Origin: a virus
Length of the DNA stretch: 64,000 nt
Virus record (IMG/VR): IMGVR_UViG_3300035670_000019
Span: 62,001-126,000 of that record
Strand: one strand, 5' to 3'
A program made the translations under genes and the position numbers. Below, piece after piece: positions 7,147 to 46,317 of the stretch (position 1 is its first letter; each line of letters opens with the position of its first letter). The notes under the pieces were generated by a model. The model did no database searches. It worked only from the letters and a program-made list of their open reading frames with translations, and had not been told where the DNA came from.

Positions 7147-8421
7147 ATGTATTATTTAATAGAAAGTCAACATCAATTTGAGGAGTTTGCTCAACAGCAA
7201 ACTAGCAGATGTTTTGTTGAACTTATTCTAAATCATGATCTAATACATCCTGTTTTAAATGATGTTTCATTAGTCTATATTAGACCTGAAGGTGATAAAA
7301 AAGGATATGTTATTCCTATCTCACATAATGAAGCATTTTCTATTCCATTCCAACAAATAAAAAAGTTTATAGCTAGTTATAAAGAAGTATTTGTTAGAGA
7401 TAAAAAAACAAGCATGTGTTTTTTAAATAAAAAGAATTTAATACATGCTCCTATCAATACAGAAAATTTATCATTTCCTATCTATGATTATTACCACAGA
7501 CAATATCCAAACCGAAATGATATAAATAAATTTATTCCTATTGCTAAACACTATGAGCGTTGTGAGGAATATTTTAAACATGTAAACTTCACACCACAAT
7601 CTGAGTTTTATAACAAAGCAATAGAGCTATTCCAGACAATAGAATCAAGTGGTATTAGTGTGAATACAACGCTTATAGACGATTATTTCACACCAAATAA
7701 TATCCTCTATTCAATAAAAAACAATATAATATACTCGCAGTACAACGTAGATACTACAACTAAAAGACCATCAAATAGTTTCAATGGTATTAACTTTGCC
7801 GCGTTACCTAAAGATGGTTCTAGAAAAGCATTTGTTTCGGCTAATGGAAGATTTGTTGATATTGATATTGATTCTTACCACCCAACCCTAATTGCTAAAC
7901 AAATTGGTTATGATTTTGGAGATGAGTCAATACATGATCATATGGCTCAACTATATAGAGTAGATTATAAAACAAGTAAAGAACTTACCTTTAAACAATT
8001 ATATGGAGGTATTTTTCATGATTATAAACATCTAGAATTTTTCTCTAAAACCCAAACATTAATAGATACTTTATGGGAACAGTTCAATACTGAGGGTTAT
8101 ATTGAATGTCCTATATCTAATCATAGGTTTTATCATCATCAATTACCTAATATGGGTCCTCAAAAGTTATTTAACTATTGGGTTCAAAATTTAGAAACAT
8201 CACAAAATATTTTAATATTACAAGATATATTACCAATAATAAAAGGTCATAAAACTAAATTAGTATTGTATACTTACGACGCTTTCTTATTTGACATTAG
8301 CAAAGATGAATTAGAATTGTTAGAAGATATATGTTCTGTTTTTACTAACTATGGCTTAAAATACAAGATGAAGTATGGATACAACTACTATGACCTTAGC
8401 TTACTCACAACATATGTATAA
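7147..8421 (+). CDS. Family-A DNA polymerase-like protein (short)
   Basis: A 424-aa protein with the three palm motifs of family-A polymerases at the expected order and spacing. Motif A is DIDIDSYHPTLIA with Asp242; motif B is K278-x3-F282-x3-Y286-G; motif C is LYTYDAFLF with Asp378. Upstream of motif A, RPSNSFNGINFAALPKDGSRKAF matches the region of Pol I that binds the template-primer. Position E710 of Pol I appears as Thr247. The N-terminal 65 residues resemble an exonuclease fold but lack the DxE catalytic pair. The enzyme is about half the length of Pol I. A second, family-B polymerase is encoded at 26199. Whether this one is catalytic is inferred from the retained aspartates. Confidence 0.7.
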   Translation: MYYLIESQHQFEEFAQQQTSRCFVELILNHDLIHPVLNDVSLVYIRPEGDKKGYVIPISHNEAFSIPFQQIKKFIASYKEVFVRDKKTSMCFLNKKNLIHAPINTENLSFPIYDYYHRQYPNRNDINKFIPIAKHYERCEEYFKHVNFTPQSEFYNKAIELFQTIESSGISVNTTLIDDYFTPNNILYSIKNNIIYSQYNVDTTTKRPSNSFNGINFAALPKDGSRKAFVSANGRFVDIDIDSYHPTLIAKQIGYDFGDESIHDHMAQLYRVDYKTSKELTFKQLYGGIFHDYKHLEFFSKTQTLIDTLWEQFNTEGYIECPISNHRFYHHQLPNMGPQKLFNYWVQNLETSQNILILQDILPIIKGHKTKLVLYTYDAFLFDISKDELELLEDICSVFTNYGLKYKMKYGYNYYDLSLLTTYV

Positions 8422-18536: not shown

Positions 18537-19058
18537 ATGGTTACAGCTAAAGAAGTTTTACAAGAATTTAATCCTACATTTGGTATCAAAGCTCCTGCTA
18601 AACCACCAAAGATGAAAAAGTTCAATGTTTTTTATTGGCATAGGCGTTATCCAACTCATAAGTTTTTGCCTGATAAAGAACATATATGGAATAAATGTAA
18701 AAATGGAGACTTTGAATATTCACCGTATGCTAAGTATATTAACTATGAGTATTGGTGGATGGCTGAAGAAATAGCTGCTCTTCGCAACAGTGACAAATCA
18801 CACTCAGTAAAACAAGAATTAGAACGTGAAATTATAACCAGTTATAACAAACGCCTAAAAAACCTCAGACAAGATTTTCAGCGTGATGAATTTGAACGTA
18901 TGCAAAATCTAAAAAACAGTCTCCGCAAAACATTTGGTGGTACTAAAGCAGATGTTGATGAGTTTATTGAGAAACGAGCATTTGGCACCACAGATGAAGT
19001 AATCAGACAGTACTATGCTTGGATAAGTACTGCAAAAACTGATACTCTTCCTTTTTAA
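18537..19058 (+). CDS. Unknown basic helical protein
   Basis: A 173-aa protein, basic and rich in aromatic residues in the first half (FNVFYWHRRYPTHKFLPDKEH) and in charged helices in the second (REIITSYNKRLKNLRQDF and beyond). No motif is recognised. It follows the preceding gene at 6 nt and ends before the promoter at 19067, closing the 17611 operon. Confidence 0.55.
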   Translation: MVTAKEVLQEFNPTFGIKAPAKPPKMKKFNVFYWHRRYPTHKFLPDKEHIWNKCKNGDFEYSPYAKYINYEYWWMAEEIAALRNSDKSHSVKQELEREIITSYNKRLKNLRQDFQRDEFERMQNLKNSLRKTFGGTKADVDEFIEKRAFGTTDEVIRQYYAWISTAKTDTLPF

Positions 19059-19103: not shown

Positions 19104-19889
19104 ATGAAAGTATCTCACGAAGTTCCATTAGCATTATTAGAAATGTCAAAAAGTTTTAATGATTATGACTACTGTCTACCTCATTTGCTAGACAAATATG
19201 AAGAATACAAAAAGTATTTTCAATGGGCTAAAGAAAATAATCGTTATATCATTATGGATAATTCATTACATGAATTAGGTCATGCTTATGATACTGACCG
19301 TTTAATGCATTGGATTAATGAATTACAACCAGATGAGTTTATTGTTCCTGATGTTTGGGAAGATATGGAAGCATCAATTAAAAATGCTGCTGAATGGATT
19401 AGAATTGCTCTTCCTCCTAATATTCTTAAAGTAGCTGTTGTTCAAGCTAAAAGTATTAGAGAAGCAGCTGAATGTTATTTTAAATATAAAACATTAGGTT
19501 ATAAGAAAATAGCATTCTCATATGGTGCCGCTTATTATAAAGAACATTTTCCGCATCCAACATCAGCTGTAGCAACAGCAGTAGGACGAGTATCTGTTAT
19601 AAGTAAACTATACAAAGAAGGTATTATCAAAGACACAGACAATGTTCACTTGCTAGGATGTGCTATTCCACAAGAATTTGTTCACTATAGAAACATGCCT
19701 TTTATCACTACTATTGATACATCAAATCCTATTATGGCAGCAATTGAAGGTACACTTTATGAACCATATGGTTTAGATCAAAAACCTAAAACTAAAATTG
19801 ATGATGTTATAGATAGTAAAATTGATAAAGTACAGTTTGGAAAAGTTATTATGAATACTAAATATTTTAGAACAATAAATGGAATATAA
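19104..19889 (+). CDS. dpdA: DpdA-like 7-deazaguanine DNA transglycosylase
   Basis: A 261-aa TIM-barrel protein of the tRNA-guanine transglycosylase superfamily. Recognisable barrel segments are IIMDNSLHELG (Asp52), EFIVPDVWEDMEASI (Asp83), VAVVQAKSIREAA, YKKIAFSYG and HLLGCAIPQEF (182-192). The last is the counterpart of the LMGVGTPEDL strand of TGT, and TTIDTSNP (Asp205) follows at the position of the TGT nucleophile. It is much shorter than bacterial Tgt (about 375 aa) and I see no zinc site. Together with queC, queD, queE and folE in the next 6 kb this strongly suggests that it swaps guanine in phage DNA for a 7-deazaguanine. It is the first gene after its promoter. Confidence 0.75.
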   Translation: MKVSHEVPLALLEMSKSFNDYDYCLPHLLDKYEEYKKYFQWAKENNRYIIMDNSLHELGHAYDTDRLMHWINELQPDEFIVPDVWEDMEASIKNAAEWIRIALPPNILKVAVVQAKSIREAAECYFKYKTLGYKKIAFSYGAAYYKEHFPHPTSAVATAVGRVSVISKLYKEGIIKDTDNVHLLGCAIPQEFVHYRNMPFITTIDTSNPIMAAIEGTLYEPYGLDQKPKTKIDDVIDSKIDKVQFGKVIMNTKYFRTINGI

Positions 19890-20064
19890 ATCACTTTATG
19901 ATCATTTAGGCAGAGCCGCAGGTGGTCAACTAGGAAAACAAGTAGCTGAGGCTGCTGTTCGAGATGGAGTAAAAATTCAAACTCGACAAGTATCTAACCC
20001 TAAGTATGAAGGAGAAGTAATGCTGTATCCTTCAGATTGGCTTGAAAATTATTTTAATAAATAA
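19879..20064 (+). CDS. Small protein in the dpdA operon
   Basis: A 61-aa protein overlapping the end of dpdA by 11 nt. It starts MEYKSLYDHLGRAAG, continues LGKQVAEAA and ends in a hydrophobic/aromatic YPSDWLENYF segment. No family is recognised. Tight coupling to dpdA suggests co-expression; function unknown. Confidence 0.55.
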   Translation: MEYKSLYDHLGRAAGGQLGKQVAEAAVRDGVKIQTRQVSNPKYEGEVMLYPSDWLENYFNK

Positions 20065-20078
20065 AAACAATAAAAGTT

Positions 20079-20348
20079 ATGCCTTATTTTTCTACAGACG
20101 CCGAATTAGACATTTCAATTGATGAATTTCTTTCTGAATGTGATTCAGGAGATATTAGAGAGCTTATTAACGCACTTATTGAAGATGGTCATTTAACTCC
20201 AAAACAGGTATTTAACCATAAAGCATCTGGAGTAACAGCAATGGAACAAGATCATATCAATATGTGTAATAAACTATCTGATAAATTCTATCAAATGAGT
20301 AATGAAGATATTCAAGTATTAGAAACCTTATATAAAAAATATTGTTAA
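20079..20348 (+). CDS. Small acidic protein, unknown
   Basis: An 89-aa acidic helical protein (ELDISIDEFLSECDSGDIRELINALIEDG at residues 8-36). Similar short acidic proteins are common phage hypotheticals. The start codon has the recurrent AAAAGTT-ATG context. It sits directly upstream of queC with a 1-nt gap. Confidence 0.6.
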   Translation: MPYFSTDAELDISIDEFLSECDSGDIRELINALIEDGHLTPKQVFNHKASGVTAMEQDHINMCNKLSDKFYQMSNEDIQVLETLYKKYC

Positions 20349-20349
20349 T

Positions 20350-21234
20350 ATGAAAAAACAAGCAGTATTATCCTTAAGTGGAGGAATGGATAGCTCCACA
20401 TTGCTGCTTCATCTACTTGCCAATGGCTATGAAGTAACAGCGTTATCATTTGATTATGGGCAAAAACATAATGTTGAATTAGAACGTGCTAAAGATTTAG
20501 TTAAGTATATTAATGGTAATCCAAGTCGTTTATTCCATCATGATCATGCTCCAAATGGATTTGATGAAATTTATCCACTAGTAAAACATCAAGTAATTGA
20601 ACTTAAAGGACTATCTGAACTATTAAATTCAGCATTAGTAACTGGAGGTGAAGAAGTACCTGAAGGACACTATGCTGAAGAAAATATGAAGGCAACAGTA
20701 GTTCCTAATCGTAATAAGATTTTTAGTTCAATTATTCAAGCAGTAGCATTATCAATTGCTGAACAAAAGAATACTGAATGTGCTATTGCAATGGGTATTC
20801 ATGCAGGTGATCATGCTATTTATCCTGATTGTCGTCAAGAGTTTCGAGATATTGATTTTGAAGCATTTAAAGCAGGCAATTGGGGAAGTGAGAAAGTAAA
20901 AATTTATACTCCATATCTTGATACTGATAAGTTTGGTATTTTAGAGGATGGTGATAAATGTATAGAATGCTTGAAACTAGACTTTAATGAAGTATATAAG
21001 CGCACTAATACATCTTATAAACCAATTAATTGGACCTGGACAGATGTAAATGGTGAAATTCGCTCTAAATGGTACTCAGATTACAAATCAGCATCATCTG
21101 TAGAACGTATTGAAGCATTTATGAAACTAGGAAAACCAGACCCAGTAGAATATGCTGATGAAGAAGGTCCTACAACTTGGAGAATGGTAACAAATCATGT
21201 TAAACAAATATTAGAAAATCATGCCAACATCTAA
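20350..21234 (+). CDS. queC: 7-cyano-7-deazaguanine (preQ0) synthase QueC, cysteine-poor variant
   Basis: A 294-aa ATP-pyrophosphatase-fold enzyme converting CDG to preQ0. It has the P-loop SGGMDSS (10-16), TVVPNRN (116-122), GIHAGDHAIYPDCR (149-162) and the late VERIEAF segment of QueC. Canonical QueC binds zinc with four Cys in the C-terminal part (SCY ... CGxCxxCxxR). Here the aligned positions read Ser222, Asp244, Ser247 and Ser250, so all four are replaced. A CIEC pair at 204-207 lies in a short extra segment instead. It is about 60 aa longer than E. coli QueC. It lies in the operon with dpdA. Confidence 0.85.
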   Translation: MKKQAVLSLSGGMDSSTLLLHLLANGYEVTALSFDYGQKHNVELERAKDLVKYINGNPSRLFHHDHAPNGFDEIYPLVKHQVIELKGLSELLNSALVTGGEEVPEGHYAEENMKATVVPNRNKIFSSIIQAVALSIAEQKNTECAIAMGIHAGDHAIYPDCRQEFRDIDFEAFKAGNWGSEKVKIYTPYLDTDKFGILEDGDKCIECLKLDFNEVYKRTNTSYKPINWTWTDVNGEIRSKWYSDYKSASSVERIEAFMKLGKPDPVEYADEEGPTTWRMVTNHVKQILENHANI

Positions 21235-21409
21235 AAAACGAGGTGGGAAAAAAGCCCACAACAAACGAGTAGCAAAACGTAATACAAATATTGCTACAGC
21301 ACAACGTGCGTATGAAAAACTTTATACTAATGCACTTCAAGAACATTTAAATAAATTAAATCAAGAACAAAATGGAACATCCAAACCCGAAGAAACACCA
21401 GCGGATTAG
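21221..21409 (+). CDS. Small basic protein
   Basis: A 62-aa protein overlapping queC by 14 nt. The first 25 residues are strongly basic (SKKRGGKKAHNKRVAKRN), followed by a helix and an acidic end. It could bind nucleic acid; no family is recognised. Confidence 0.5.
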   Translation: MPTSKKRGGKKAHNKRVAKRNTNIATAQRAYEKLYTNALQEHLNKLNQEQNGTSKPEETPAD

Positions 21410-21527
21410 TTTTGTTAAATCTGCTTTACGAATTATAGGTTATTTATTAATATTAACAGAACCAGCAGCTGCTGTCACATTTTTAGTATGTAGTGAAGCT
21501 TTAGGTATATTGGAGGAATTAGTATGA
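21372..21527 (+). CDS. Small single-span membrane protein, 51 aa
   Basis: A 51-codon ATG ORF overlapping the preceding gene by 38 nt and the next by ATGA. After a basic N-terminus (NPKKHQRISFVKSALR) it has one hydrophobic segment of about 22 residues (IIGYLLILTEPAAAVTFLVC) and ends LGILEELV. The positive-inside pattern and exact stop/start coupling to the thioredoxin gene argue that it is expressed. Function unknown. Confidence 0.6.
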   Translation: MEHPNPKKHQRISFVKSALRIIGYLLILTEPAAAVTFLVCSEALGILEELV

Positions 21528-21778
21528 GTAAACAATTATTTTATTATAGCGCACCTTGGTGCCAACCATGTGAAACATTAGGCCCAATTATGGACCAAGT
21601 AAACAAACAAATACCTATCTGTAAAATTAATATTGACTATGCTGACCCAGCTGTTATTGAATCAGCACAAATAAGAAACATTCCTACAGTGGTGTTAGTA
21701 GAAAATGGAAAAGAAGTTCGTAGATTTACAGGTGTAAAATCATATAACCAAATAATAGACTTTTTAAATTATGGCTGA
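21524..21778 (+). CDS. Thioredoxin-like protein
   Basis: An 84-aa minimal thioredoxin fold. The active site is PWCQPC at residues 10-15, with the cis-Pro segment IRNIPTVVLV near 56-65 and the C-terminal helix IIDFLNYG. It could reduce the class I ribonucleotide reductase encoded at 13382-16066. It is coupled by overlaps on both sides. Confidence 0.85.
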   Translation: MSKQLFYYSAPWCQPCETLGPIMDQVNKQIPICKINIDYADPAVIESAQIRNIPTVVLVENGKEVRRFTGVKSYNQIIDFLNYG

Positions 21779-22031
21779 ATTTAGTAAACAATGGGCTGAA
21801 AAATATGACCCTGAAGGTGGTTGGGATTTTGATATTGAAGAAGTATCAAACCAATTAGATCCAAACCATTATGTACCTATGATCTGTGAAGGTTTTGGAT
21901 TTATAGCTATTGGACGAGATGAAAATTATAATGTTTTGCTTGCTATGCCTACTGGTGAAACAGAAACAGATGAAAATGGTCAAATTTCTGATATAGTAAC
22001 TTGGCAAGCATATGAAGATATCGTAAAATAA
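21771..22031 (+). CDS. Unknown small protein
   Basis: An 86-aa acidic protein (MAEFSKQWAEKYDPEGGWDFDIEE at the start) overlapping the thioredoxin gene by 8 nt. A central strand GFGFIAIGRDENYNVLLAMP suggests a small mixed fold. Not recognised. Confidence 0.55.
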   Translation: MAEFSKQWAEKYDPEGGWDFDIEEVSNQLDPNHYVPMICEGFGFIAIGRDENYNVLLAMPTGETETDENGQISDIVTWQAYEDIVK

Positions 22032-22037
22032 AATAAT

Positions 22038-22502
22038 ATGGGAAAATTTCAATCAACAAAATTATTTGATGGATACAGTACTTGTTTCCGTCAATGGAAA
22101 GCAGAAGGAACTCATTGTAGATTCTTACATGGTTATGCTGTATCATTTCGAGTATGGTTTGAAGGTGATTTAGATGAGCGTAATTGGGTATTTGATTTTG
22201 GAGGCATGAAACGTGCCAAACATAAAATATCAGGCATGGCTCCTAAAGATTATTTTACTTGGTTACTTGATCATACAACAATCATAGCTGAAGATGATCC
22301 TTACATGAACCAATTTTTACAAATGCATATAGACGGTGTTATTCAATTGCGAGTATTACCAGCTACTGGTTGTGAAAGATTTGCTGAGTACCTTCATACA
22401 ACTATTAATAATTTTCTAAAAAAAGAAACAGATGGAAGAGTTAAAGCTGTCAAAGTTGAAGTTTACGAACATGAAAGAAACAGTGCTAGTTATGGAGAAT
22501 AA
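22038..22502 (+). CDS. queD: 6-carboxytetrahydropterin synthase-like QueD (variant metal site)
   Basis: A 154-aa T-fold protein making CPH4 from dihydroneopterin triphosphate in the preQ0 pathway. It has FRQWKAEGTHCRFLHGY (17-33), WVFDFGGMKRAK, LLDHTTIIAEDDP and VKVEVYEHERN. In canonical QueD the catalytic Cys precedes HGH and an earlier His completes the zinc site. Here Cys27 and His31 are kept, the second His of HGH is Tyr33, and the earlier His is Phe17. This FRQWxA...LHGY form is, to my memory, a known divergent branch of the family. Context with queC/queE/folE supports the role. Confidence 0.8.
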   Translation: MGKFQSTKLFDGYSTCFRQWKAEGTHCRFLHGYAVSFRVWFEGDLDERNWVFDFGGMKRAKHKISGMAPKDYFTWLLDHTTIIAEDDPYMNQFLQMHIDGVIQLRVLPATGCERFAEYLHTTINNFLKKETDGRVKAVKVEVYEHERNSASYGE

Positions 22503-22549
22503 CTACTGGACTTCAACCCCAACATATAATACTAATTTTATTTATAACT

Positions 22550-23332
22550 ATGAAACCAGGAAGAATAACTGATTATAACAAAACTCTACCAATTGTAGAA
22601 CTATACCCCGCAGTGCAAAGTGAAGGCAGTAGAGCCGGAATGCCTACTATTGTTATTAGAACTACAGGTTGTACTCACAGATGTTGGTTTGGAGAAGGTG
22701 GATGGTGTGACTCATGGTACACCTCAATCCACCCCGAAAAAGGCAAATACACATTCAATGATATAATTGAAATGTATAACAAATACCCACATGCAAGAGA
22801 AATGATGCTAACAGGTGGTTCACCAACTATGCATCCTGATCTTGTTAATGAACTTACTCATTTTGCATATCAACGTGGGATATTTATTACAATAGAAACT
22901 GAAGGTTCCCATTTTATTGAAACAGACTATCCAATCGGCTTGGTATCTTTGTCTCCTAAGTTTAGCAATAGCAATCCTAGGATTGGAATTCTTACTCCTC
23001 AAGGTAAAGAAGTGGATCAAAAGATGATAGATCAACATAATAAGTTGCGTCTTAATAAAGAAGCAATTAGACAGATGCTTGAGTATCATGATGATTTTCA
23101 TTTTAAGCCTGTTTGTAATCCTATTGAGATGCCTGAAGTATGGGAAGAGATAGAGGCGTTTAGACATGAAATGGATATTTCAAAACGTAAAACATGGATT
23201 ATGCCTCCTGGTGATACTAGAGAAGAATTAATTCGAGTTTATCCTATGGTAATGGATTTCTGTAGAGACAATGGATACAACTTTACAGGTAGAGAACATA
23301 TTATTGCTTTTGATGTTCAACGGTGTGTTTGA
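22550..23332 (+). CDS. queE: 7-carboxy-7-deazaguanine synthase QueE (radical SAM)
   Basis: A 260-aa radical-SAM enzyme. EGSRAGMPTIVIRTTGC at 25-41 is the typical QueE lead-in. The cluster cysteines are Cys41, Cys45 and Cys53, in GCTHRCWFGEGGWCDSWYT. The usual C-x3-C-x2-C motif is thus stretched to C-x3-C-x7-C by an insertion before WCDS. LTGGSPTMHP follows at about 89-98. It would form CDG from CPH4. A HNH endonuclease gene is inserted right after it. Confidence 0.87.
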   Translation: MKPGRITDYNKTLPIVELYPAVQSEGSRAGMPTIVIRTTGCTHRCWFGEGGWCDSWYTSIHPEKGKYTFNDIIEMYNKYPHAREMMLTGGSPTMHPDLVNELTHFAYQRGIFITIETEGSHFIETDYPIGLVSLSPKFSNSNPRIGILTPQGKEVDQKMIDQHNKLRLNKEAIRQMLEYHDDFHFKPVCNPIEMPEVWEEIEAFRHEMDISKRKTWIMPPGDTREELIRVYPMVMDFCRDNGYNFTGREHIIAFDVQRCV

Positions 23333-23367
23333 TCCTAAATAAAGAGTATATTTTTATATTTTTTAGG

Positions 23368-23381
23368 ATATTTATAATAAA
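23368..23381 (+). promoter_or_regulatory. ATATTTATAATAAA element (candidate phage promoter)
   Basis: Exact copy of the recurrent 14-mer, 2 nt before the ATG of the HNH endonuclease gene. No -33 box at the proper spacing. Confidence 0.4.
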
Positions 23382-23383
23382 AT

Positions 23384-24007
23384 ATGAATTTCCCGTACAA
23401 ACAAATATGTAAAGAATGCTTAATAGATTTTAAATCTAAAGGTTCAAATAAAAAATTCTGTTCTAAAGAATGTAAACTTAAATGGAATGCTAAAAATATT
23501 TACTCATATACATCATGCTCAAATTGTGGAGAACAAGTAAGACATTCACCTAGTGATAAATATAAACACAAATTTTGCTCCAATACATGCCAGGGAAAAT
23601 GGAGAATGGATAATTTAAAAGAAGAAAATATTCAATTAGCATCTAAAATGAGAGAAAGCTGGTGTGAAGATAGTTGGAAAAAAAGTATAGAGACTCGAAA
23701 GAAAAATGGTAATATAATTACTAGTCATAATTGGAAACAATTTTGGAAAAAATGTGATTATTTAACTAGAAAAATAAGACAAAAAATGCTTGAAAATTGG
23801 GATGGATTTGATTATATTGATGGAGAATATATTAAAGACAACTTAAAACTTCATTATACAGATACTAATTATCCAACATTAGATCATGTTAAACCTAGAA
23901 GTGTATGTTTTAAAGAAGGATTAACTCCTGAAGAAACTACTAAACCTGAAAATTTAAAATGGACTAAAAGAGTAAATAATAGTTCTAAAAGTAACAAATA
24001 TGAGTAA
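23384..24007 (+). CDS. Free-standing HNH homing endonuclease
   Basis: A 207-aa protein with two N-terminal Cys4-type zinc-finger pairs (CKEC ... CSKEC; CSNC ... CSNTC) and a C-terminal HNH core: YPTLDHVKPRSVCF, then KPENLKWTKRVNNSSKSNK. The DH, N and NNSSK residues match the phage HNH group that carries its zinc fingers at the N-terminus. It interrupts the preQ0 cluster between queE and a small gene and has its own upstream 14-mer element. The base composition is more AT-rich than its neighbours. It is probably selfish and not part of the modification pathway. Confidence 0.8.
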   Translation: MNFPYKQICKECLIDFKSKGSNKKFCSKECKLKWNAKNIYSYTSCSNCGEQVRHSPSDKYKHKFCSNTCQGKWRMDNLKEENIQLASKMRESWCEDSWKKSIETRKKNGNIITSHNWKQFWKKCDYLTRKIRQKMLENWDGFDYIDGEYIKDNLKLHYTDTNYPTLDHVKPRSVCFKEGLTPEETTKPENLKWTKRVNNSSKSNKYE

Positions 24008-24236
24008 ACCAATTTTTATAATACGATTTCCATATAGTGATAATAATATGGATAGAGATATTTTTAAAAAAAATTATGAAGATATAAGTAACAAATTAAA
24101 TGATTATCATGTATTAACAATAATGGGTGATGATGTTGAAACAGTAACATTTGAATGTTTTAATGCTCCTCATACTGAAATAGAATTTGAAGAATTAAAG
24201 TATCGTGTATTAGAATTACTGAAATACAGAGTATAA
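24000..24236 (+). CDS. Unknown small protein
   Basis: A 78-aa protein overlapping the endonuclease gene by 8 nt. It reads as strand-helix-strand (PIFIIRFPYSD, DIFKKNYEDISNKL, YHVLTIMGDD) with an acidic C-terminus. Not recognised. Confidence 0.55.
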   Translation: MSKPIFIIRFPYSDNNMDRDIFKKNYEDISNKLNDYHVLTIMGDDVETVTFECFNAPHTEIEFEELKYRVLELLKYRV

Positions 24237-24237
24237 T

Positions 24238-24513
24238 ATGGATAAAAAATTACTAAAAGAAACAGTAGAAAAAGAAAATGTTATATTATTTTTCTACGCT
24301 GACTGGTGCGGTGGTTGTAAAGTAGCAAACCCAATGGTTCAAAAAATAGCTACTAAACTTAACCTTAGGTTGATTCGAATTAATGAAAATACAGAACTAG
24401 AAGAAGAATATGAAGTAGATTATTACCCACATCTTATTCTAGCTAATAAAGGCAAACTTCGACATTACCCAGGTGCAACTATGATAAGAGATCTATATGA
24501 AAGTATTATTTGA
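24238..24513 (+). CDS. Second thioredoxin-like protein
   Basis: A 91-aa thioredoxin fold with active site DWCGGC near residues 22-27 and cis-Pro segment YYPHLILAN. It is distinct from the one at 21524 (WCQPC). It may serve RNR or another thiol enzyme. It overlaps the next gene by 17 nt. Confidence 0.8.
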   Translation: MDKKLLKETVEKENVILFFYADWCGGCKVANPMVQKIATKLNLRLIRINENTELEEEYEVDYYPHLILANKGKLRHYPGATMIRDLYESII

Positions 24514-25006
24514 AAAATCCCAAATTGAAAACCGAATTAAAGAAATCGGTATTCAAATCCTTAATCGCCATAAAGAAGAAAACAATCCAATTGTATTAGT
24601 TGGAGTACTAAATGGTGGTTTTATGTTTTATTCTAAGCTAGTAGATCAACTAGCTCTTTTAGACCCACAATGTGATTTTATTAGAGTAAAATCATACAAA
24701 GGTAGAGAGCATGAAGTACCTGAAATTATTATTCCCTCATCTTTAGATGTTGAGAATAAATTTGTCTATATTATAGATGACATTTATGATACAGGTTTAA
24801 CAATGCAAGTACTTAAAAACCAATTTACAGATTTAGGAGCATCAGGAGTTAGTGTTATAACACTAGTTAAACGAGCAATTAATGAAGTAGATATGCCTAT
24901 AAATTCACTTTATGGTTTTGAGATTCATGATGAATGGGTTGTTGGTTATGGAATGGACGATGAAGATGGTAGAAAAAGAAGTCTGCCTTATATTTTGGCA
25001 ATTTAA
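24497..25006 (+). CDS. hpt: Hypoxanthine-guanine phosphoribosyltransferase-like enzyme
   Basis: A 169-aa PRTase. It has VGVLNGGFMFYSKLV (PPi loop), the PRPP motif YIIDDIYDTGLTMQ and the end VVGYGMDDEDGRKRSLPYI, all standard for HPRT. It converts a purine base and PRPP to the nucleotide. Its presence between queE and folE raises the possibility of a role in recycling the guanine released by DpdA, which is my inference only. Confidence 0.85.
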   Translation: MKVLFEKSQIENRIKEIGIQILNRHKEENNPIVLVGVLNGGFMFYSKLVDQLALLDPQCDFIRVKSYKGREHEVPEIIIPSSLDVENKFVYIIDDIYDTGLTMQVLKNQFTDLGASGVSVITLVKRAINEVDMPINSLYGFEIHDEWVVGYGMDDEDGRKRSLPYILAI

Positions 25007-25025
25007 GAATAATAAGTTATATTAA
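24995..25025 (+). promoter_or_regulatory. Host-type promoter for folE
   Basis: TTGG (24995-24998), 19 nt, TATATTAA (25018-25025), ATG at 25032. The -33 box lies within the end of the hpt gene. Confidence 0.6.
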
Positions 25026-25031
25026 GGTTAT

Positions 25032-25727
25032 ATGGAAAACAATAGAAGAAAATTTCACAATGACATTGAATGTGTCCCTACAGGTTTTGCTAATGGATCA
25101 GCAACTGATAGGCCTCTAACAAATGAGGAAAAACAACAAATGATTGAAGAAGCCACTGTTCATTTTGGTAACTTCTTAACAGCACTAAAATGTGATTGGC
25201 AAAACGATCCTAACTCTGCTGATACACCTCGTCGTGTAGCTAAAGCATATGTTAATGATTTGTGGGCTGGTCGTTATAATGGATTTACTGATATTACTTC
25301 ATTCCCATCAGACGGATATGATGGAGTAATTATTGAACGTAATATCCCACTAACATCAATGTGTTCTCATCATCACCAAACAATTAGTGGTGTAGTTCAT
25401 ATTGGTTATATTGCTGGTGAGAAAGGTCGAGTGATTGGTTTATCTAAACTAAATCGTATTGTAGAGCACTTTGGTCGTAGAGGTGCTATTCAAGAACAAT
25501 TAACTGCTGCTATCCATCAAGCTGTAAATAAGGTTTGTGAAGGTAATAAAGGTGTAGTTGTAACTGTAGTAGCATCTCACAATTGTGTAAGTTGTAGAGG
25601 TGTTAAACATCAAGGTGCTGCAATGATTACTACTAAAGCATCAGGTGTGTTTATGGAAAATGACAATTTAGCTCGTAAAGAGTTTTTTGATTCACTTAAA
25701 ATCAATAACGGAAATGTCTCAATCTAA
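25032..25727 (+). CDS. folE: GTP cyclohydrolase I
   Basis: A 231-aa type I enzyme making dihydroneopterin triphosphate from GTP, the first step to preQ0. It has TPRRVAKAYVNDLWAG, IPLTSMCSHHHQTISG (zinc Cys and His), IGLSKLNRIVEHFGRR, QEQLT and ASHNCVSCRGVKHQGA with the second zinc Cys. These are complete. The long N-terminal 35 residues are variable. It is driven by its own promoter and overlaps the MazG-like gene. Confidence 0.92.
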   Translation: MENNRRKFHNDIECVPTGFANGSATDRPLTNEEKQQMIEEATVHFGNFLTALKCDWQNDPNSADTPRRVAKAYVNDLWAGRYNGFTDITSFPSDGYDGVIIERNIPLTSMCSHHHQTISGVVHIGYIAGEKGRVIGLSKLNRIVEHFGRRGAIQEQLTAAIHQAVNKVCEGNKGVVVTVVASHNCVSCRGVKHQGAAMITTKASGVFMENDNLARKEFFDSLKINNGNVSI

Positions 25728-26199
25728 AGAAAATTATGTACCATTTGTAAGCGAGGTAGAGGAGTTTAACGCTACAATGGGCAAACCAAATAACTATACT
25801 CCTAGTATTCCAGATGAAAAAGAATGGATGTTTGTTTATAATTTTATTCTAGAGGAACTAGAAGAATATAAAGAAGCATGTCAACAAGGAGATATTGTAG
25901 GTGTATTAGATGCACTATGTGATATTACTTATGTTTCATTAGGTAACGGAGCAATGTTACACGGTCTAAAAGATAAAGTACAAGACGCGTATGCTGAGGT
26001 ACAAGCATCAAATATGTCTAAGGCTTGTAAAACAGAAGAAGAAGCTCAACAAACTGTTAACCGTAGAACAATAGAGCAAGGAATGGAATGTCACTATGAA
26101 AAACAAGGTGATTATTGGGTAGTGTATCGTACTTCTGATCGTAAGGTGATGAAGTCAATTAACTATTTTAAACCAAATCTAGAACAATTCTTTAAATAA
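25714..26199 (+). CDS. MazG-like nucleotide pyrophosphohydrolase
   Basis: A 161-aa all-alpha NTP pyrophosphatase-like protein. The metal motif EELEEYKEA (near 47-55) plus VLDALCDITYVSLG (near 64-77) is the ExxE...ExxD/DxxxD pattern of the MazG/HisE superfamily. It could remove unwanted dNTPs, for instance modified or host-signal nucleotides. I choose the ATG at 25714 (14-nt overlap with folE); a TTG at 25687 would add nine residues. Confidence 0.75.
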   Translation: MSQSKENYVPFVSEVEEFNATMGKPNNYTPSIPDEKEWMFVYNFILEELEEYKEACQQGDIVGVLDALCDITYVSLGNGAMLHGLKDKVQDAYAEVQASNMSKACKTEEEAQQTVNRRTIEQGMECHYEKQGDYWVVYRTSDRKVMKSINYFKPNLEQFFK

Positions 26200-28787
26200 T
26201 GTACCAATCAATCTATTACGATTTTAGTACTTACACCTATTATTTACGAGACGATAAGCAAGGCTGGATGGAATTCCAATACCAGCCTACTTATTGGCAA
26301 CGTACAAACGAATGGTCTGAGAATGCTAGACCTGTTCTAACAGGTGGATGGGCTGTACCTACTAAAAAGTATAGTAAAGATGATCCTGATTTATTAGAAA
26401 AAGATATTGATAAGTCACTTGTTGTATTACGAGAGTTGTACTATAAGGAAGATGATGTTGTACCTGCTTGGCATAACATAGTTTATATTGATATTGAGAT
26501 TGAAATGGGAGGTGCTTTGACACCTCACTATATTCAACAAGCACCTATGCCTCTTACATCTATTGCTCTTATAGATGTGACCACTAAACAAAAAATATGT
26601 TTTGTTGTTGACCCATCAGGCCAAATTAAAGAAACAAATCAAGATGATAAGTTAATCATACCTTGTAGAAACGAAAAAGAATTAATAGGTAAATTCTTAT
26701 CCAAATTTGAAGAACTAGATCCCACAATATTAGTTGGTTACAATTCAGATTACTTTGATATGCCTTACCTATACTTCCGAATTAAGCAAGTTGTAGGCGA
26801 AGATGAGGTACTACGTTTATCTCCAATCAGAAAGGTAACTGCTAGAGAATTTAATGGTGAAAACCAAATTACTATTGGGGGTGTTAATTGTCTAGACTAT
26901 ATGTTGCTTCATAAAAAATACATTATGAAGGAAGAACCATCATATAAATTAGGCGACATTGGAACCAAATATGTTAATCTAGGTAAAATTGAATATGAAG
27001 GTAATTTAAATACATTGTTTAAAGACGATATAAGCAAGTTTATAGACTATAACCTTCGAGATGTTGAAATCATTGAAGCACTAGAAGCTAAACTTAAGTT
27101 TATTGACTTAACAATAATGATTTCTCATATCTGTAATATTCCATATGAAAGCATTTATTGGAATACAGTTATGAATGAGGGTGCTATTTTGAAGTATCTT
27201 AAACGTGAAGGTATTATTTCACCTAATAAACCAACAACTCATAATCCATCACTTAAAAACTTTAAAGAAACATATGCTGGTGGTTATCTATTAGAACCTA
27301 TTCCTGGATTGTACTTTGATGTTATTGATTTAGACTTTACATCACTGTATCCTTCAATTATTAAGTCACTTAATTTAGGTATTGAAACATTAGTAGGTCG
27401 AATCAAAGTACCTTATATGGCTACCTATGAACAAAATCATAGTCTAGATAAACTTAAAGAACGTGATCCAAATGAAGAAGTTGTAGTTGAAAAAGTAAAT
27501 AAAAGAAACTATACTTTAACCCAAGCAAAAGTTAAACTAGGAGACCTAATTAAAATTATTGAAGACAATAACTTTACCATCTCAGCCTCAGGTGCTATGT
27601 TTAAAACTGATGAACAAAGTGTTGTAGCTAAGATTTTGGAAGGATGGTTTGATAAACGAGAACATTATAGAGGTTTAAAGAAAAAAGCAGGTAAAGAAGA
27701 AGATTGGGCTAATTATAAATTATATGATTTGTTCCAACATGCATTTAAAATCCTACAGAATGCAATGTATGGTACATTCGCTAAAAGTGGATGGCGTTAT
27801 ACTGACGGACAATTAATTTGTAGCGCCGCTATTACTAATACAGGTCAATCATTAACTCAAAATTCAATTAAGTTTGTTAATAATAAACTAAACACTGAAT
27901 TAGAATCCGATAAACAATACATTTGTATTAGTGATACAGATTCTATGTATATTGAATTAGGTGATTTATTAAAACACAGACACCCAAATTCAGTTCCTGA
28001 AGATAAAGACAAACATATCCTAGAGTTAGCAACTGAAATTCAAGATGAATCTAATCATCATCTAAATACTTTATGTAAAGAGCTATTCAATATTGACCCT
28101 AAAAAACATTACTTCCAGTTAAAACAAGAAGTAATTGCTAAAGGTATCTTAGTTACAGGTAAGAGAAGATATGCTATGTATATCACTAATAAAGAAGGTG
28201 TCACTGTTGAAGAACTAGATATGAAAGGTATTGAATTGATGAAATCCAATATGAATAAAATGTTTAAGTCATTTGGAGAACAATTCATTAAAGATGTTTT
28301 ATTTGGTAAACCTAAATCTGAAATTGATAAGTCAATTATTGACTTCTATAAATCACTCAAATCAGTAGACCCCAAACAACTAGGCAAACCTACTGGAGTA
28401 AAACAAATATCCTCATACCATATACCAGCTCGTGCAGGTGAAATGTTTAGTAATTTTAAATTGAAAGCACCTTCAAATACTAAAGCAGCTGTTCGTTATA
28501 ATGACTTATTAAAGTTTAAAAAACTAGATAAAAAATATGAATCAATAATTGAAGGTGATAAGATTTTTATTATTAACCTAAAACCAAACATGTATAAATT
28601 AGAAACTATTGGTTTACCAAATGCTAAAGTACCTGATGAGATAGAAAAGTTTGTTAAAATGTATATTGATATAGATGAAATTTTTGAATCATTATTATTG
28701 AATAAGTTAAAAGAACTCTATAGTGATCTTAAGTGGGAATTCCCGCCACTAAATGCTAATGTAACTAAATTTTTCTCCTTTGGATAA
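26199..28787 (+). CDS. gp43: DNA polymerase, family B (T4 gp43-like)
   Basis: An 862-aa replicative polymerase. The proofreading exonuclease has Asp98/Glu100 (YIDIEIE), LVGYNSDYFDMPYL and the Exo III helix FIDYNLRDVEIIEAL. Palm motif A is DLDFTSLYPSII (Asp379), motif B is the helix ILQNAMYGTFAKSGWRYTD, and motif C is SDTDSMY (Asp579, Asp581). VTGKRRYAMY follows as the Kx(K/R)Y motif. The C-terminal end NANVTKFFSFG resembles the clamp-binding tail of gp43. All catalytic residues are intact. It overlaps the previous stop by 1 nt. Confidence 0.93.
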   Translation: MYQSIYYDFSTYTYYLRDDKQGWMEFQYQPTYWQRTNEWSENARPVLTGGWAVPTKKYSKDDPDLLEKDIDKSLVVLRELYYKEDDVVPAWHNIVYIDIEIEMGGALTPHYIQQAPMPLTSIALIDVTTKQKICFVVDPSGQIKETNQDDKLIIPCRNEKELIGKFLSKFEELDPTILVGYNSDYFDMPYLYFRIKQVVGEDEVLRLSPIRKVTAREFNGENQITIGGVNCLDYMLLHKKYIMKEEPSYKLGDIGTKYVNLGKIEYEGNLNTLFKDDISKFIDYNLRDVEIIEALEAKLKFIDLTIMISHICNIPYESIYWNTVMNEGAILKYLKREGIISPNKPTTHNPSLKNFKETYAGGYLLEPIPGLYFDVIDLDFTSLYPSIIKSLNLGIETLVGRIKVPYMATYEQNHSLDKLKERDPNEEVVVEKVNKRNYTLTQAKVKLGDLIKIIEDNNFTISASGAMFKTDEQSVVAKILEGWFDKREHYRGLKKKAGKEEDWANYKLYDLFQHAFKILQNAMYGTFAKSGWRYTDGQLICSAAITNTGQSLTQNSIKFVNNKLNTELESDKQYICISDTDSMYIELGDLLKHRHPNSVPEDKDKHILELATEIQDESNHHLNTLCKELFNIDPKKHYFQLKQEVIAKGILVTGKRRYAMYITNKEGVTVEELDMKGIELMKSNMNKMFKSFGEQFIKDVLFGKPKSEIDKSIIDFYKSLKSVDPKQLGKPTGVKQISSYHIPARAGEMFSNFKLKAPSNTKAAVRYNDLLKFKKLDKKYESIIEGDKIFIINLKPNMYKLETIGLPNAKVPDEIEKFVKMYIDIDEIFESLLLNKLKELYSDLKWEFPPLNANVTKFFSFG

Positions 28788-37917: not shown

Positions 37918-39354
37918 ATGAATCAAAGTTTTGGTTATCTTCCTCAAAATGAGAGGAAAAAAATCTTACTAATTTGTGACGATATTAGAGTACATTCAGG
38001 TGTAGCTACTGTTGCTCGAGAATTAGTATTAAATACAGCTCAACATTTTAATTGGATTAATGTAGGAGGTGCTATCAACCATCCTGAACAAGGTAAACGA
38101 TTAGATTTATCTGATAACACTAATGAAAATACTGGTTTAACAGATAGCTCAGTCATTTTATATCCAACTAACGGATATGGAGATGCTCGTTTGATTAGAC
38201 AACTAATCCAAGTAGAAAAGCCAGATGCTATTTTCTTAATCACTGATCCAAGATATTTTATTTGGTTGTTCCAAATTGAAAATGAAATCAGAAAGAAAAT
38301 GCCTATTATCTATCTCAATATTTGGGATGATTATCCAGCTCCAATGTATAATAGAGCGTATTATGAGTCATGTGATGCTTTGTTATCTATCTCTAAACAA
38401 ACTAAAAACATTAATACTTTAGTATTAGGCGATAAAGCTAAAAACAAAATTATTCAATATGTACCTCATGGTTTAAATGAAGATGTCTTTAAACCACTTG
38501 ATGTTAATGCACCTGAATTAAAAGAGTTTAAAAAGAAATTATTTGGAGGTAAAGAAATTGATTTCGCTTTATTCTTTAACTCTCGAAACATTCGCCGCAA
38601 ACAAATCCCAGATACAATGATGGCTTATAAGTTATTTGTTGATGGATTATCTGAAGAACAAGCAAAACGTTGTGCGTTTGTATTACATACTCAAGTAGTA
38701 GATGATAATGGTACTGACTTAGAAGCAGTAAGAGAATTATTGTTTGGTGATGATCCAAAATATAACATTATTTTCTCACAACAGATGCTCCCAGCTGGTC
38801 AAATGAATTTGCTCTACAATAGCACTGACTGCCAGATCCTATTAACTAACAATGAAGGTTGGGGATTGAGCTTAACTGAAGCGATATTAGTAGGTAATCC
38901 AATTATCGCTAATGTGACAGGTGGAATGCAGGATCAAATGCGCTTTAGTAAAAAAGGTAAGTGGATTGATTTTGATGATAAATTCCCTTCAAATCATACT
39001 GGCACAATTAAAGAACATGGTGAGTGGGCATTTCCGGTTTATCCAACTAATCGTTCAATTCAAGGTTCACCATTAACTCCTTATATTTGGGATGATAGAT
39101 GTAACGCTGAAGATGCAGCTAAACAAATTAAAGCAGTTTATAACTTATCTAAAGAAGAAAGAAAAACATTAGGTTTAAAAGGTCGTGAGTGGGCTTTATC
39201 TGATGAAGCAGGATTCACAAGTAAAAAAATGGGTATTAATGTTATTAAAACTTTAGATAAATTATTTAAAACTTGGAAACCAAGAAAAACATATGAGTTA
39301 GTAAATGCTAATGAAACTAAACCTAAAACTGTACCTCACCAATTAGTTTATTAA
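37918..39354 (+). CDS. Glycosyltransferase, GT4/GT-B-like
   Basis: A 478-aa GT-B protein. The N-terminal Rossmann domain has ILLICDDIRVHSGVATVAREL; the C-terminal domain has FNSRNIRRKQIPDTMMAY, a segment ending NLLYNSTDCQILLTNNEGWGLSLTEAILVG with the Glu-x7-Glu of GT4 enzymes, and GNPIIANVTGGMQDQM. No signal peptide is seen, so it acts in the cytoplasm on an activated sugar. It is the first of about 14 sugar-related genes. Donor and acceptor are unknown. Confidence 0.82.
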   Translation: MNQSFGYLPQNERKKILLICDDIRVHSGVATVARELVLNTAQHFNWINVGGAINHPEQGKRLDLSDNTNENTGLTDSSVILYPTNGYGDARLIRQLIQVEKPDAIFLITDPRYFIWLFQIENEIRKKMPIIYLNIWDDYPAPMYNRAYYESCDALLSISKQTKNINTLVLGDKAKNKIIQYVPHGLNEDVFKPLDVNAPELKEFKKKLFGGKEIDFALFFNSRNIRRKQIPDTMMAYKLFVDGLSEEQAKRCAFVLHTQVVDDNGTDLEAVRELLFGDDPKYNIIFSQQMLPAGQMNLLYNSTDCQILLTNNEGWGLSLTEAILVGNPIIANVTGGMQDQMRFSKKGKWIDFDDKFPSNHTGTIKEHGEWAFPVYPTNRSIQGSPLTPYIWDDRCNAEDAAKQIKAVYNLSKEERKTLGLKGREWALSDEAGFTSKKMGINVIKTLDKLFKTWKPRKTYELVNANETKPKTVPHQLVY

Positions 39355-39372
39355 TATTAAAAAAAAAGTTAT

Positions 39373-40683
39373 ATGAAACCATTATTTTTTATTAGTTGCC
39401 CTATTGACACATATAGTGGATATGGAGCACGTTCTCGAGATTTAGTTAAAGCAATCATTGCGTTAAATAAATATGATGTTAAAATTATTCCCCAAATGTG
39501 GGGTAATACACCTTGGGGTTTTATTGATGATAATCCTGAGTGGTTATTTTTAATACCTCATTTATGGACCCAACCTCAACTTCCAAAACAACCTGAAATT
39601 TGGATGCAAATTACAATTCCAAATGAGTTTCAACCTATTGGTAAATATAACATTGGAGTAACAGCTGGTGTTGAAACAACATTAGCTCCTGGGGATTGGA
39701 TTGAAGGAATTAATAGAATGAATTTAACATTAACTTCTTCTGAGCATTCAAAAGAAACATTTATTAAAACTGTTTTACAAAAAGTAAACCAACATACTAA
39801 TCAACCAATTGAGCAAATCCAAGTCAACCAACCTATTGAAGTATTATTTGAAGGTGCTAATATTGATATCTATAAATCACTTGATACAGTAGAATCATTT
39901 CCTGAGTTAACTGATATTAAAGAAAAATTCTGTTATTTGTTTGTAGGTCACTGGATTAATGGTGATTTAGGTGAAGATAGAAAAAATGTTGGTTTGTTAA
40001 TTAAAGCGTTTTATGAAACATTTAAAAATAAAAAACAAAAACCAGCCCTTATTTTAAAAACATCTCAAATGGGTTCTTCATATGTTGATCGAGATGAGAT
40101 ATTAAAAAAAATAACAGCTATTAAAAAAACAGTTAATTCAAAAGATTTACCAAACATTTATCTATTACATGGTGAATTTAGTGATTCTGAAATGAATGAA
40201 TTATATAATCATTCTAAAGTAAAAGCAATGATTAATTTAACTAAAGGTGAAGGTTTTGGTCGCCCATTATTAGAATTTAGTTTAACTAAAAAACCAATCA
40301 TCACAACTAATTGGAGTGGCCATAAAGATTTTCTAGATGAAAACTTCACCACTATGCTCCCAGGCGCTATGGCTAATGTCCACCCAAGCGCAGCTAATCA
40401 GTGGTTACTGAAAGAATCACAATGGTTTAATGTTGATACAGGATATGTAGGACATCATTTAAAGAATATGTTTGAAAATTATAAAACATATATTGATGGT
40501 GCTAAACGCCAAGCGTATAAAAGTAAAAATGAATTTAGTTGGGATAAAATGAAAGATAAATTAAATCAATTATTTGATCAATATATCCCTGAGTTCCCAA
40601 AACAAATTCAATTACAACTTCCTAAATTAAATAAAATTGAATTACCAAAACTTAAAAAAGTAGAAGAAAATGTCACAGGATAA
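39373..40683 (+). CDS. Glycosyltransferase, GT4-like
   Basis: A 436-aa GT-B-type protein. PIDTYSGYGARSRDLVKAI opens it; the nucleotide-sugar half has FLFVGHW-type sequence (YLFVGHWINGDLGEDRKNVG), and NLTKGEGFGRPLLEFSLTKKPIITT gives the E-x7-E motif. Its C-terminal 30 residues are Leu/Pro/Lys repeats (LPKLNKIELPKLKK). It overlaps the next gene by 14 nt. Confidence 0.8.
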   Translation: MKPLFFISCPIDTYSGYGARSRDLVKAIIALNKYDVKIIPQMWGNTPWGFIDDNPEWLFLIPHLWTQPQLPKQPEIWMQITIPNEFQPIGKYNIGVTAGVETTLAPGDWIEGINRMNLTLTSSEHSKETFIKTVLQKVNQHTNQPIEQIQVNQPIEVLFEGANIDIYKSLDTVESFPELTDIKEKFCYLFVGHWINGDLGEDRKNVGLLIKAFYETFKNKKQKPALILKTSQMGSSYVDRDEILKKITAIKKTVNSKDLPNIYLLHGEFSDSEMNELYNHSKVKAMINLTKGEGFGRPLLEFSLTKKPIITTNWSGHKDFLDENFTTMLPGAMANVHPSAANQWLLKESQWFNVDTGYVGHHLKNMFENYKTYIDGAKRQAYKSKNEFSWDKMKDKLNQLFDQYIPEFPKQIQLQLPKLNKIELPKLKKVEENVTG

Positions 40684-41131
40684 AATTATTATATGCCCTA
40701 AATCAGGAGGTGACTTATGTTATGAAACACAAGTTACACCTGAAATTACAAATTGGATGTCTTTATCTTGTGGGTATTGGACTAATAGTTTAATGACTAA
40801 AAATAGTGATTTTTATAAAGAACAATTTGAAGTACTACCTGAATTATATAAAGATTTAGCCTGGGAAGATTTAAATACAGGTTTAATTTGGTTACCTCAA
40901 ACAATTAATCATCCATCTCAAGGTATGATATTCGCTAATGGGACATCATCTGATGACTGGAAATGGGCAGCTGTTAAAGCTATTAAAGTAACTGAAGAAG
41001 AAAAAGAAAAATATCCAATCCCAAAACAACCAGGTAAATTCTATGAATACAGAATGAATATGGAAACACTTCAACATTTTGAAGAAAGAGAGTTTATAGA
41101 TGCTTTAGAATATATTGGCTTAATAAATTAA
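40670..41131 (+). CDS. Unknown protein in the glycan island
   Basis: A 153-aa protein. ICPKSGGDLCYETQVTPEITNWMSLSCGYWTN has three Cys that might bind a metal; the rest includes EVLPELYKDLAWEDLNTGLIWLPQTINHP. It resembles small phage structural or assembly hypotheticals more than a sugar enzyme. Promoter 41115 lies inside its end. Confidence 0.5.
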   Translation: MSQDKIIICPKSGGDLCYETQVTPEITNWMSLSCGYWTNSLMTKNSDFYKEQFEVLPELYKDLAWEDLNTGLIWLPQTINHPSQGMIFANGTSSDDWKWAAVKAIKVTEEEKEKYPIPKQPGKFYEYRMNMETLQHFEEREFIDALEYIGLIN

Positions 41132-41145
41132 TTTTATTATATTAT
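41115..41145 (+). promoter_or_regulatory. Host-type promoter inside the glycan island
   Basis: TTGG (41115-41118), 19 nt, TATATTAT (41138-41145), ATG at 41150: leaderless or nearly so. Confidence 0.62.
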
Positions 41146-41149
41146 AATT

Positions 41150-41782
41150 ATGAAAATAAGTTATGGTTTAACAGTTTGTAATGAGCATCAAGAATTATTA
41201 AATCTTATTACATATTTAGAAAATAAAATAGATCATGAAGATGAAATAGTTGTTGTTTATGATCAAAATAGAGTCACTGATGAAGTAATAAATATATTAG
41301 AAAAACATAAAGAAAAAATACATTATTACCCATTTAATTTCCAACAAAATTTCTTAGAAAACAAAAACTATTTAGGTTCTAAATGTACTGGAGATTATAT
41401 TTTTCAGATTGATGCTGATGAAATTCCAGAAGAATTCCTTATTCAAAATCTAAAATCAGTATTAGAATTAAATCCAGTTGAGTGTCTTATTATACCTAGA
41501 AAAAATTTAGTTGAAGGTTTAACCCAAGAACATATTCATAAATGGAAATGGAATGTAAATGAAAAAGGATGGGTAAATTGGCCTGATCCTCAAAAACGTG
41601 TCTATAAAAATGATCCTAAAATACAATGGTCAGGACATCAAGTTCATGGTATGGTTGAAGGATATAAAACTTTTGTAGCTTTACCATTTGAAGAAGAATG
41701 GAGTATTATTCATAATAAAACTATTGATCGTCAAGAGAAACAAAATGAACGTTACACTAAAATAGATTTAAAACAAATATGA
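41150..41782 (+). CDS. Glycosyltransferase family 2-like
   Basis: A 210-aa GT-A protein. ISYGLTVCNEHQELLNLI is the GT2 nucleotide-binding start, and YIFQIDADEIPEE holds the D-x-D motif. NYLGSKCTGDYI precedes it. The C-terminus contains the HQVHGMVEGY segment that may bind metal or acceptor. ATGA overlap to the next gene. Confidence 0.75.
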   Translation: MKISYGLTVCNEHQELLNLITYLENKIDHEDEIVVVYDQNRVTDEVINILEKHKEKIHYYPFNFQQNFLENKNYLGSKCTGDYIFQIDADEIPEEFLIQNLKSVLELNPVECLIIPRKNLVEGLTQEHIHKWKWNVNEKGWVNWPDPQKRVYKNDPKIQWSGHQVHGMVEGYKTFVALPFEEEWSIIHNKTIDRQEKQNERYTKIDLKQI

Positions 41783-42597: not shown

Positions 42598-42606
42598 ATC
42601 TAACTA

Positions 42607-43395
42607 ATGAAAATAGATAGAGCAATTTTAATATCAGATAATAATCCATTATATTATTCTTTTTGGAATAATTTATCAAAAACATATAAAGAAAAATTTA
42701 ATATTAACCCAACTTTAATATTTTTTGGAACTCAAGAAGAATTAGAAACAGCTAATCTGTCTACTAAATATGGTAATATTATTATAGAAACTTCAGTGAA
42801 TAATGTATTACCATGGCAATACACTTGGGCTTTATTTTACTATACAAAATTTTACCTTAATGAAGTTTGTGTTATTATGGGGATTGATCAAATACCTTTA
42901 GGTACATATTTTTTAAAAGATATTATTCAAGATGTTAATGATGATCAATATGTTATGTTAATTGATGACCAATATACTTTAGAAAACAAATTCCCAAAAA
43001 AGTGGGACCAAGGAGGATTTAGCCCATCTGCTTATCATATAGCTAAAGGAAGTACATTTAATAGTATATATAATTTTGAAGATTCTTTTGAAAAAGAAAT
43101 TAAAAAAATAAATTCATTAAATATACCCACAATGTGGATTGATGGTTGGGGTACAGATGAAGCGTATAGTTCAAAAATGTTAAGAGAATATCACAATAGA
43201 GATAGAATATCTGATTTGAGTGCTTCTGATTCTTTTTTAAAAAGACGAATAGATTGCCATAGACATAATGAAGTACCATATGATATAAATTTATTAAATT
43301 CTAATTATTTTATTGAATGTCATGCTTGTAGACCTTATGAACATCATCAACAGTATTTAGATACTTTATTTAATAATATACCTAAATTTAATTAA
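42607..43395 (+). CDS. Putative glycosyltransferase-like protein
   Basis: A 262-aa protein with a GT-A-like course: [46 protein letters not shown] (a D-x-x pair in place of DXD) and [14 protein letters not shown] near 178-191, the latter like the acceptor-side motif of nucleotide-sugar transferases. No family can be named. Its place among sugar genes supports the call. Confidence 0.5.
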
Positions 43396-43396
43396 A

Positions 43397-43864: not shown

Positions 43865-43869
43865 CAATT

Positions 43870-45686: not shown

Positions 45687-45701
45687 AAAATAACTAATAA
45701 A

Positions 45702-46304: not shown

Positions 46305-46317
46305 AAATATAATACTT

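Follow-up and report, generated by a model that had tools for sequence, protein, structure and literature searches.

A DpdA3-like 7-deazaguanine operon in a large phage, with a phosphoribosyltransferase predicted to recycle guanine

The transglycosylases of CP220-type Campylobacter phages were reportedly grouped as DpdA3 by Cui et al. in 2023 and tied to complete guanine replacement, a label that we take to cover transglycosylases of the CP220 and immuto type, including the one described here. In phages CP220 and CPt10, 100% of dG is replaced by dADG (PMC8306585), and a 2019 survey scored CP220-type phages as being without DpdA (PMC6884629). DpdA2, described in Vibrio phage nt-1, goes with dPreQ0 in DNA (PMC6884629).

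Here we analysed a 64-kb stretch of phage DNA (the window; bases 62001–126000 of the 163,030-bp virus record IMGVR_UViG_3300035670_000019) that carries a 7-deazaguanine system of the DpdA3-like type, a known kind. Three of its features appear to be undescribed in the accessible literature: the linkage of a phosphoribosyltransferase (PRTase) to the pathway, a QueC that lacks its zinc cysteines and a coupled helical protein.

A large phage related to immuto

The source is probably a large phage with a host in the phylum Bacteroidota. Gene order in the window parallels that of the 160-kb Flavobacterium phage vB_FspM_immuto (MW353176; hereafter immuto; terminase, 60%; major capsid protein, 57%), and the ribonucleotide reductase, helicase and tail genes have matches in the same order. 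Because both ends of the record match neighbouring tail-region genes of immuto, the 163-kb record is probably close to complete. No tRNA genes were found in the 64-kb window, and no Rfam elements, such as a preQ1 riboswitch, between its positions 15000 and 32000.

Away from the operon, a 424-aa protein (7147–8421) is a 39% homologue of an immuto protein annotated as DNA polymerase A; the immuto copy has a weak match to PF00476, the window copy none to any Pfam family. Several genes at 37918–49086 match immuto glycosyltransferases, in a block that is shared with immuto only in part. A subtilisin-like S8 peptidase (59363–61648; Pfam 7.1e-30) is unusual cargo for a phage.

A conserved operon for preQ0 synthesis

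All of the genes named in an earlier note on this DNA, made from the sequence alone, are intact open reading frames (ORFs) on the plus strand (Table 1). The note had placed the full pathway from GTP to preQ0 (FolE, QueD, QueE and QueC) in 6 kb, and this holds: all four enzymes are encoded within 6 kb of the transglycosylase gene, and Pfam agrees with PHROGs, in which the proteins match QueC-, QueD- and QueE-like families and GTP cyclohydrolase, each at 1e-36 or better. The MazG-like ORF overlaps the 3′ end of folE.

Table 1. Features of the operon in window coordinates
Feature	Position	Strand	Evidence
Conserved small protein, 173 aa, candidate DpdA partner	18537..19058	+	Homologues near dpdA
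Predicted DpdA3-like DNA-guanine transglycosylase, 261 aa	19104..19889	+	tblastn, conserved residues, AF2 fold
Small conserved ORF, 61 aa, 3′ of dpdA	19879..20064	+	In 33/80 loci; 54% identity to immuto homologue
Predicted QueC-type preQ0 synthase, zinc-less variant, 294 aa	20350..21234	+	Pfam QueC 3.8e-39
Thioredoxin-like protein	21524..21778	+	Pfam Thioredoxin 1.4e-13
QueD (6-carboxytetrahydropterin synthase)	22038..22502	+	Pfam PTPS/QueD 3.3e-15; phrog_2389 1.6e-36; 61% identity to immuto QueD
QueE	22550..23332	+	Pfam Radical_SAM 1.6e-8; phrog_2076 3.5e-47; 68% identity to immuto QueE
Second thioredoxin-like protein	24238..24513	+	Pfam Thioredoxin 2.3e-15
HGPRT, predicted guanine-recycling enzyme	24497..25006	+	Pfam Pribosyltran 5.1e-18; NCBIfam HGPRTase 3.8e-36; PDB HGPRT 2e-22
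FolE (GTP cyclohydrolase I)	25032..25727	+	Pfam GTP_cyclohydroI 7.9e-42; phrog_2197 1.1e-57
MazG/PRA-PH-like nucleotide pyrophosphohydrolase	25714..26199	+	Pfam PRA-PH 1.9e-10; 74% identity to immuto
Family B DNA polymerase, conserved downstream operon end	26199..28787	+	Pfam DNA_pol_B 2.8e-30; in 34/80 loci

The operon occurs widely among phages from the environment, with more than 500 relatives of the DpdA-like protein in IMG/VR, and few isolates carry such a DpdA. In the 80 closest loci the same order recurs with few changes, (173-aa protein)–DpdA–QueC–(thioredoxin)–QueD–QueE–PRTase–FolE–MazG–PolB, and this conservation rules out a chance arrangement. We found no cellular version: the search of bacterial genome contigs yielded only eight, each of them part of an assembled bin and not of a named isolate's genome. 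The cluster had been thought to differ from known ones, a view that does not stand because immuto has nearly the same set (QueC, QueD, QueE, PRTase, FolE, MazG, DpdA and GroES/EL).

In 61 of the 80 loci, a homologue of the 173-aa protein is encoded no more than about 10 kb from dpdA, in many of them directly 5′ of it with a stop/start overlap or a short gap. Its AF2 model is all-helical (pLDDT 85) and had no match in a PDB fold search at E ≤ 0.001; tblastn against GenBank phages returned no match, and PHROGs only scattered weak ones. We regard it as a candidate partner of DpdA.

Between QueE and the PRTase, a 207-aa protein (23384–24007) with Cys-rich motifs and an HNH-like C terminus is possibly, judged by eye, an inserted homing-type endonuclease. 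Near GroES/EL, the window phage carries a family B polymerase and immuto one of family A (locus L005, 37854–40187); these related phages have apparently swapped polymerases.

A short, predicted transglycosylase

The 261-aa protein has no Pfam match above the cut-off. It matches phrog_19058, a family of unknown function (1.3e-51), and, weakly, the PADLOC DpdA profile (0.012); profile comparison with DpdA1 gave no match. Searches of PDB sequences, with the single sequence or with a profile, returned only sub-threshold matches, of which the sole partial one to the tRNA-guanine transglycosylase (TGT) superfamily was to the DNA-guanine transglycosylase 7ui4. There, Asp205 aligns with the SIDSTTP motif of 7ui4, as expected of the catalytic Asp in the DpdA-like SID-S/T-P motif. 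By tblastn, the protein is 39% identical over its full length to proteins of CP220-type Campylobacter phages and 39% over 86% to an immuto protein annotated as DpdA (range of identity to immuto, 37–39%).

Fold comparison decided the matter. In a PDB fold search with an AlphaFold2 model built from 49 relatives (pLDDT 95, pTM 0.91), the best 50 matches were all tRNA-guanine transglycosylases (E 1.8e-8 to 7e-7; TMq 0.61–0.69). Among BFVD viral structures, the model matched M4SLA5 of phage phiST (TM 0.82) and, more weakly, R9TGF0 of nt-1. Residues D52, N53, D83, Q114, H182, G185 and D205 are invariant among the 49 relatives, and the HLLG/PQEF motif is invariant or nearly so; from their order along the chain, which we equate with that of the nucleophile and base-binding residues of TGT, Asp205 is the predicted nucleophile, and Asp52, Asp83 and Gln114 are predicted to help in binding the base. 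As sequence libraries scarcely recognize the protein as a DpdA, assignment to the TGT/DpdA family rests on the fold and on the CP220 and immuto homologues. In the structural check suggested in the earlier note the match is to TGT, which supports its proposal that a short TGT-like protein fits DpdA, and the model is consistent with a DNA-guanine transglycosylase whose substrate is probably phage DNA.

The same genes might instead raise queuosine in host tRNA, with the TGT-like protein acting on tRNA, a reading that has been offered for phages without DpdA (PMC6884629). The precursor pathway would be identical, and the predicted fold matches tRNA TGT. However, the absence of QueF means that no phage-made preQ1 would be available to a bacterial TGT, the only partial superfamily match is to the DNA-acting 7ui4, and the relative in CP220 belongs to a phage with fully modified DNA; we consider action on tRNA highly improbable.

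QueC without zinc cysteines and the final base

The window QueC keeps the SGGxDS, YxQxHxxE, VPxRN and YPDC motifs, as do all 73 long homologues. The zinc motif C(x)8CxxCxxC is absent from it and from 73/73 long QueC proteins of its clade, with all four cysteines lost and SASS in their place in 70 of the 73. In one study this motif is taken to mark QueC enzymes that make preQ0, and loss of preQ0 synthesis is predicted for clusters whose active-site signature is altered (PMC13329287; the canonical QueC reference here is cluster 1 of that study).

It is therefore worth asking whether the final base is something other than preQ0, with the zinc-less QueC stopping at the amide, to give dADG, or with a host QueF giving preQ1. 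The loss of all four cysteines and the pairing of the CP220 relative of this DpdA with dADG (PMC8306585) point in that direction. Against it, immuto combines a zinc-less QueC, 61% identical to that of the window, with a QueF that requires the nitrile preQ0, and this favours preQ0 synthesis by the zinc-less form. CP220, whose QueC keeps the zinc cysteines, makes dADG, so loss of zinc does not track with the amide product, and the other catalytic motifs of QueC are retained. A final base other than preQ0 is thus possible but doubtful, and we favour the reading, based on sequence comparison, that QueC of this clade is a zinc-independent preQ0 synthase. If so, zinc is not essential to preQ0 synthesis.

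Extending the search to the whole 163-kb record revealed no QueF above the cut-off and no formyltransferase. One QueF family match (E 0.005) was rejected as it lies inside FolE, a related T-fold protein, and sub-cut-off QueF matches in relatives look like the same cross-match. None of the 20 related contigs has a QueF above the cut-off; immuto is the only one of 26 related or reference records that does; and 0/80 of the closest loci match the immuto QueF or formyltransferase. Because both enzymes are absent from the record, dPreQ0 is the default predicted product, in line with the earlier expectation that the likely base is preQ0, although a QueF supplied by the host may change it.

Partial replacement of guanine, which had been anticipated, gives way to a different expectation. 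As the closest characterized relative, CP220, has 100% of its dG replaced (PMC8306585), replacement in the window phage is, by analogy, expected to be near-complete, and our best prediction is dPreQ0 in place of most, or probably all, guanines. On complete replacement, the base exchanges in one genome would number in the tens of thousands: each genome copy with all of its guanine replaced would set free a computed 51,606 guanines and consume an equal number of GTP. What becomes of the released guanine is a question that we did not find asked in the accessible literature.

A phosphoribosyltransferase tied to FolE and QueE

The HGPRT had been listed as part of a mixed content; it is not incidental, and that content proved to be the most informative part of the locus. 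A PRTase is present, beside QueE/FolE, in 34/34 loci that span QueE, FolE and MazG or PolB. Sorted by C-terminal motif, 49 PRTases comprise 37 of the HGPRT type, as in the window, and 12 of a shorter Gpt type. On the QueC tree, well-supported branches show at least 6 switches of type (parsimony counts 9), and a close sister of the window phage (L017) has the opposite, Gpt type. In the window HGPRT, the PRPP motif DDIYDTG and the base-site residues Lys125, Trp147 and Asp154 align with HGPRTs of the PDB, and the enzyme looks catalytically complete from these residues, with a family score (TIGR01203) of 124 bits against a curated equivalog cut-off of 150. The short Gpt forms are missing some of the stretch in which Escherichia coli Gpt has its mobile loop, and some of them may bind guanine rather than convert it.

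The association extends to other lineages. In VpKK5, MMDA13 and Stenotrophomonas and Pseudomonas phages, the FolE encoded beside DpdA carries an N-terminally fused Gpt-like domain, and tblastn finds such fusions in approximately 33 GenBank phage records. Brevundimonas phage MaInes has a Gpt gene directly 3′ of FolE and Pseudomonas phage MIJ3 one directly 5′ of QueE; phiST also carries such a gene, with a DpdA3-like fold, FolE and QueD and, beside them, a gene for a radical SAM protein. At four loci (L096, L097, L099 and L100), proteins annotated as GTP cyclohydrolase only are FolE fusions of about 300 aa whose N-terminal part is a Gpt-like PRTase domain. In the accessible literature we found no description of a PRTase in phage 7-deazaguanine clusters, though one may exist in Cui et al. 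(2023) or Crippen et al. (2019).

The PRTase could serve ordinary purine salvage, raising the supply of nucleotides with no bearing on DNA modification, as might suit a phage that also encodes ribonucleotide reductase and other nucleotide enzymes. This seems unlikely to us given the FolE/QueE linkage in 34/34 loci with in-place family swaps, and the FolE fusion and FolE/QueE adjacency in two further lineages, which point to the preQ0 pathway.

A more direct role is also conceivable, in which the PRTase makes a 7-deazaguanine nucleotide that becomes a dNTP and is incorporated by the phage polymerase, leaving the TGT-like protein secondary; the PRTase is tied to FolE and QueE, and the operon ends in a DNA polymerase. 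However, a transglycosylase that looks active from sequence and model is always present, and CP220 achieves complete replacement without a PRTase. The window HGPRT retains the Asp of DDIYDTG, which in established HGPRT chemistry acts at purine N7, an atom missing from 7-deazaguanines, and to our knowledge no dADG nucleotide has been detected in infected Campylobacter. We rate incorporation from a dNTP as very unlikely.

The HGPRT and Gpt families have guanine as their common substrate, and guanine is also what a guanine transglycosylase sets free. From this shared substrate, the release of guanine and the number released per genome, we propose a recycling loop. No PRTase is detectable in CP220, MA9V-3 or CAjan, and as CP220 is fully replaced, recycling would not be obligatory.

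A proposed guanine cycle

We propose, and consider likely, that the operon works as follows. FolE, QueD, QueE and the zinc-less QueC would convert GTP to preQ0, which the short TGT-fold enzyme, with Asp205 as nucleophile, would swap for guanine in phage DNA that has already been synthesized. The swap, probably at most or all guanines, would shield the genome from host nucleases, and each exchange would free one guanine. The PRTase, here of the HGPRT type, would then join guanine to PRPP to form GMP and hence GTP, refilling the substrate pool of FolE. If this is correct, the phage could re-base most of its genome at the cost of PRPP and ATP rather than of new purines.

More broadly, we see about an even chance that phage 7-deazaguanine systems commonly include a guanine recycling loop, fused to FolE in several lineages and accompanied here by a zinc-free QueC. 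The PRTase linkage, the family swapping and the FolE fusion make the fate of guanine directly testable, and the PRTase is a candidate marker for 7-deazaguanine phages.

Comparison with known systems

A close counterpart is immuto, in which QueC, QueD, QueE, FolE and MazG are 61–74% identical to those of the window and DpdA 37%, a PRTase likewise sits between QueE and FolE, and GroES/EL adjoin. It differs in that QueF and a formyltransferase adjoin DpdA, the PRTase is of the Gpt type and not HGPRT, PolA rather than PolB lies near GroES/EL, and the genes are split over several blocks. The Campylobacter phages CP220 and CPt10 (Firehammervirus) share the transglycosylase (39% identical, full length), FolE and QueC with the window; unlike it, they have a zinc-bearing QueC, no PRTase, scattered genes and dADG as the final base (PMC8306585).

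The systems of Seuratvirus CAjan and the 9g type also combine FolE, QueD, QueE and QueC with a DpdA, but theirs is DpdA1, which profile comparison does not detect from the DpdA3-like protein, and CAjan has an unfused FolE and no PRTase. Phages of the VpKK5, MMDA13 and PaMx25 type resemble the window in having a guanine-type PRTase in physical linkage with FolE, next to que genes and DpdA, whereas their PRTase is fused, shortened and Gpt-like and their DpdA is of the DpdA1 type.
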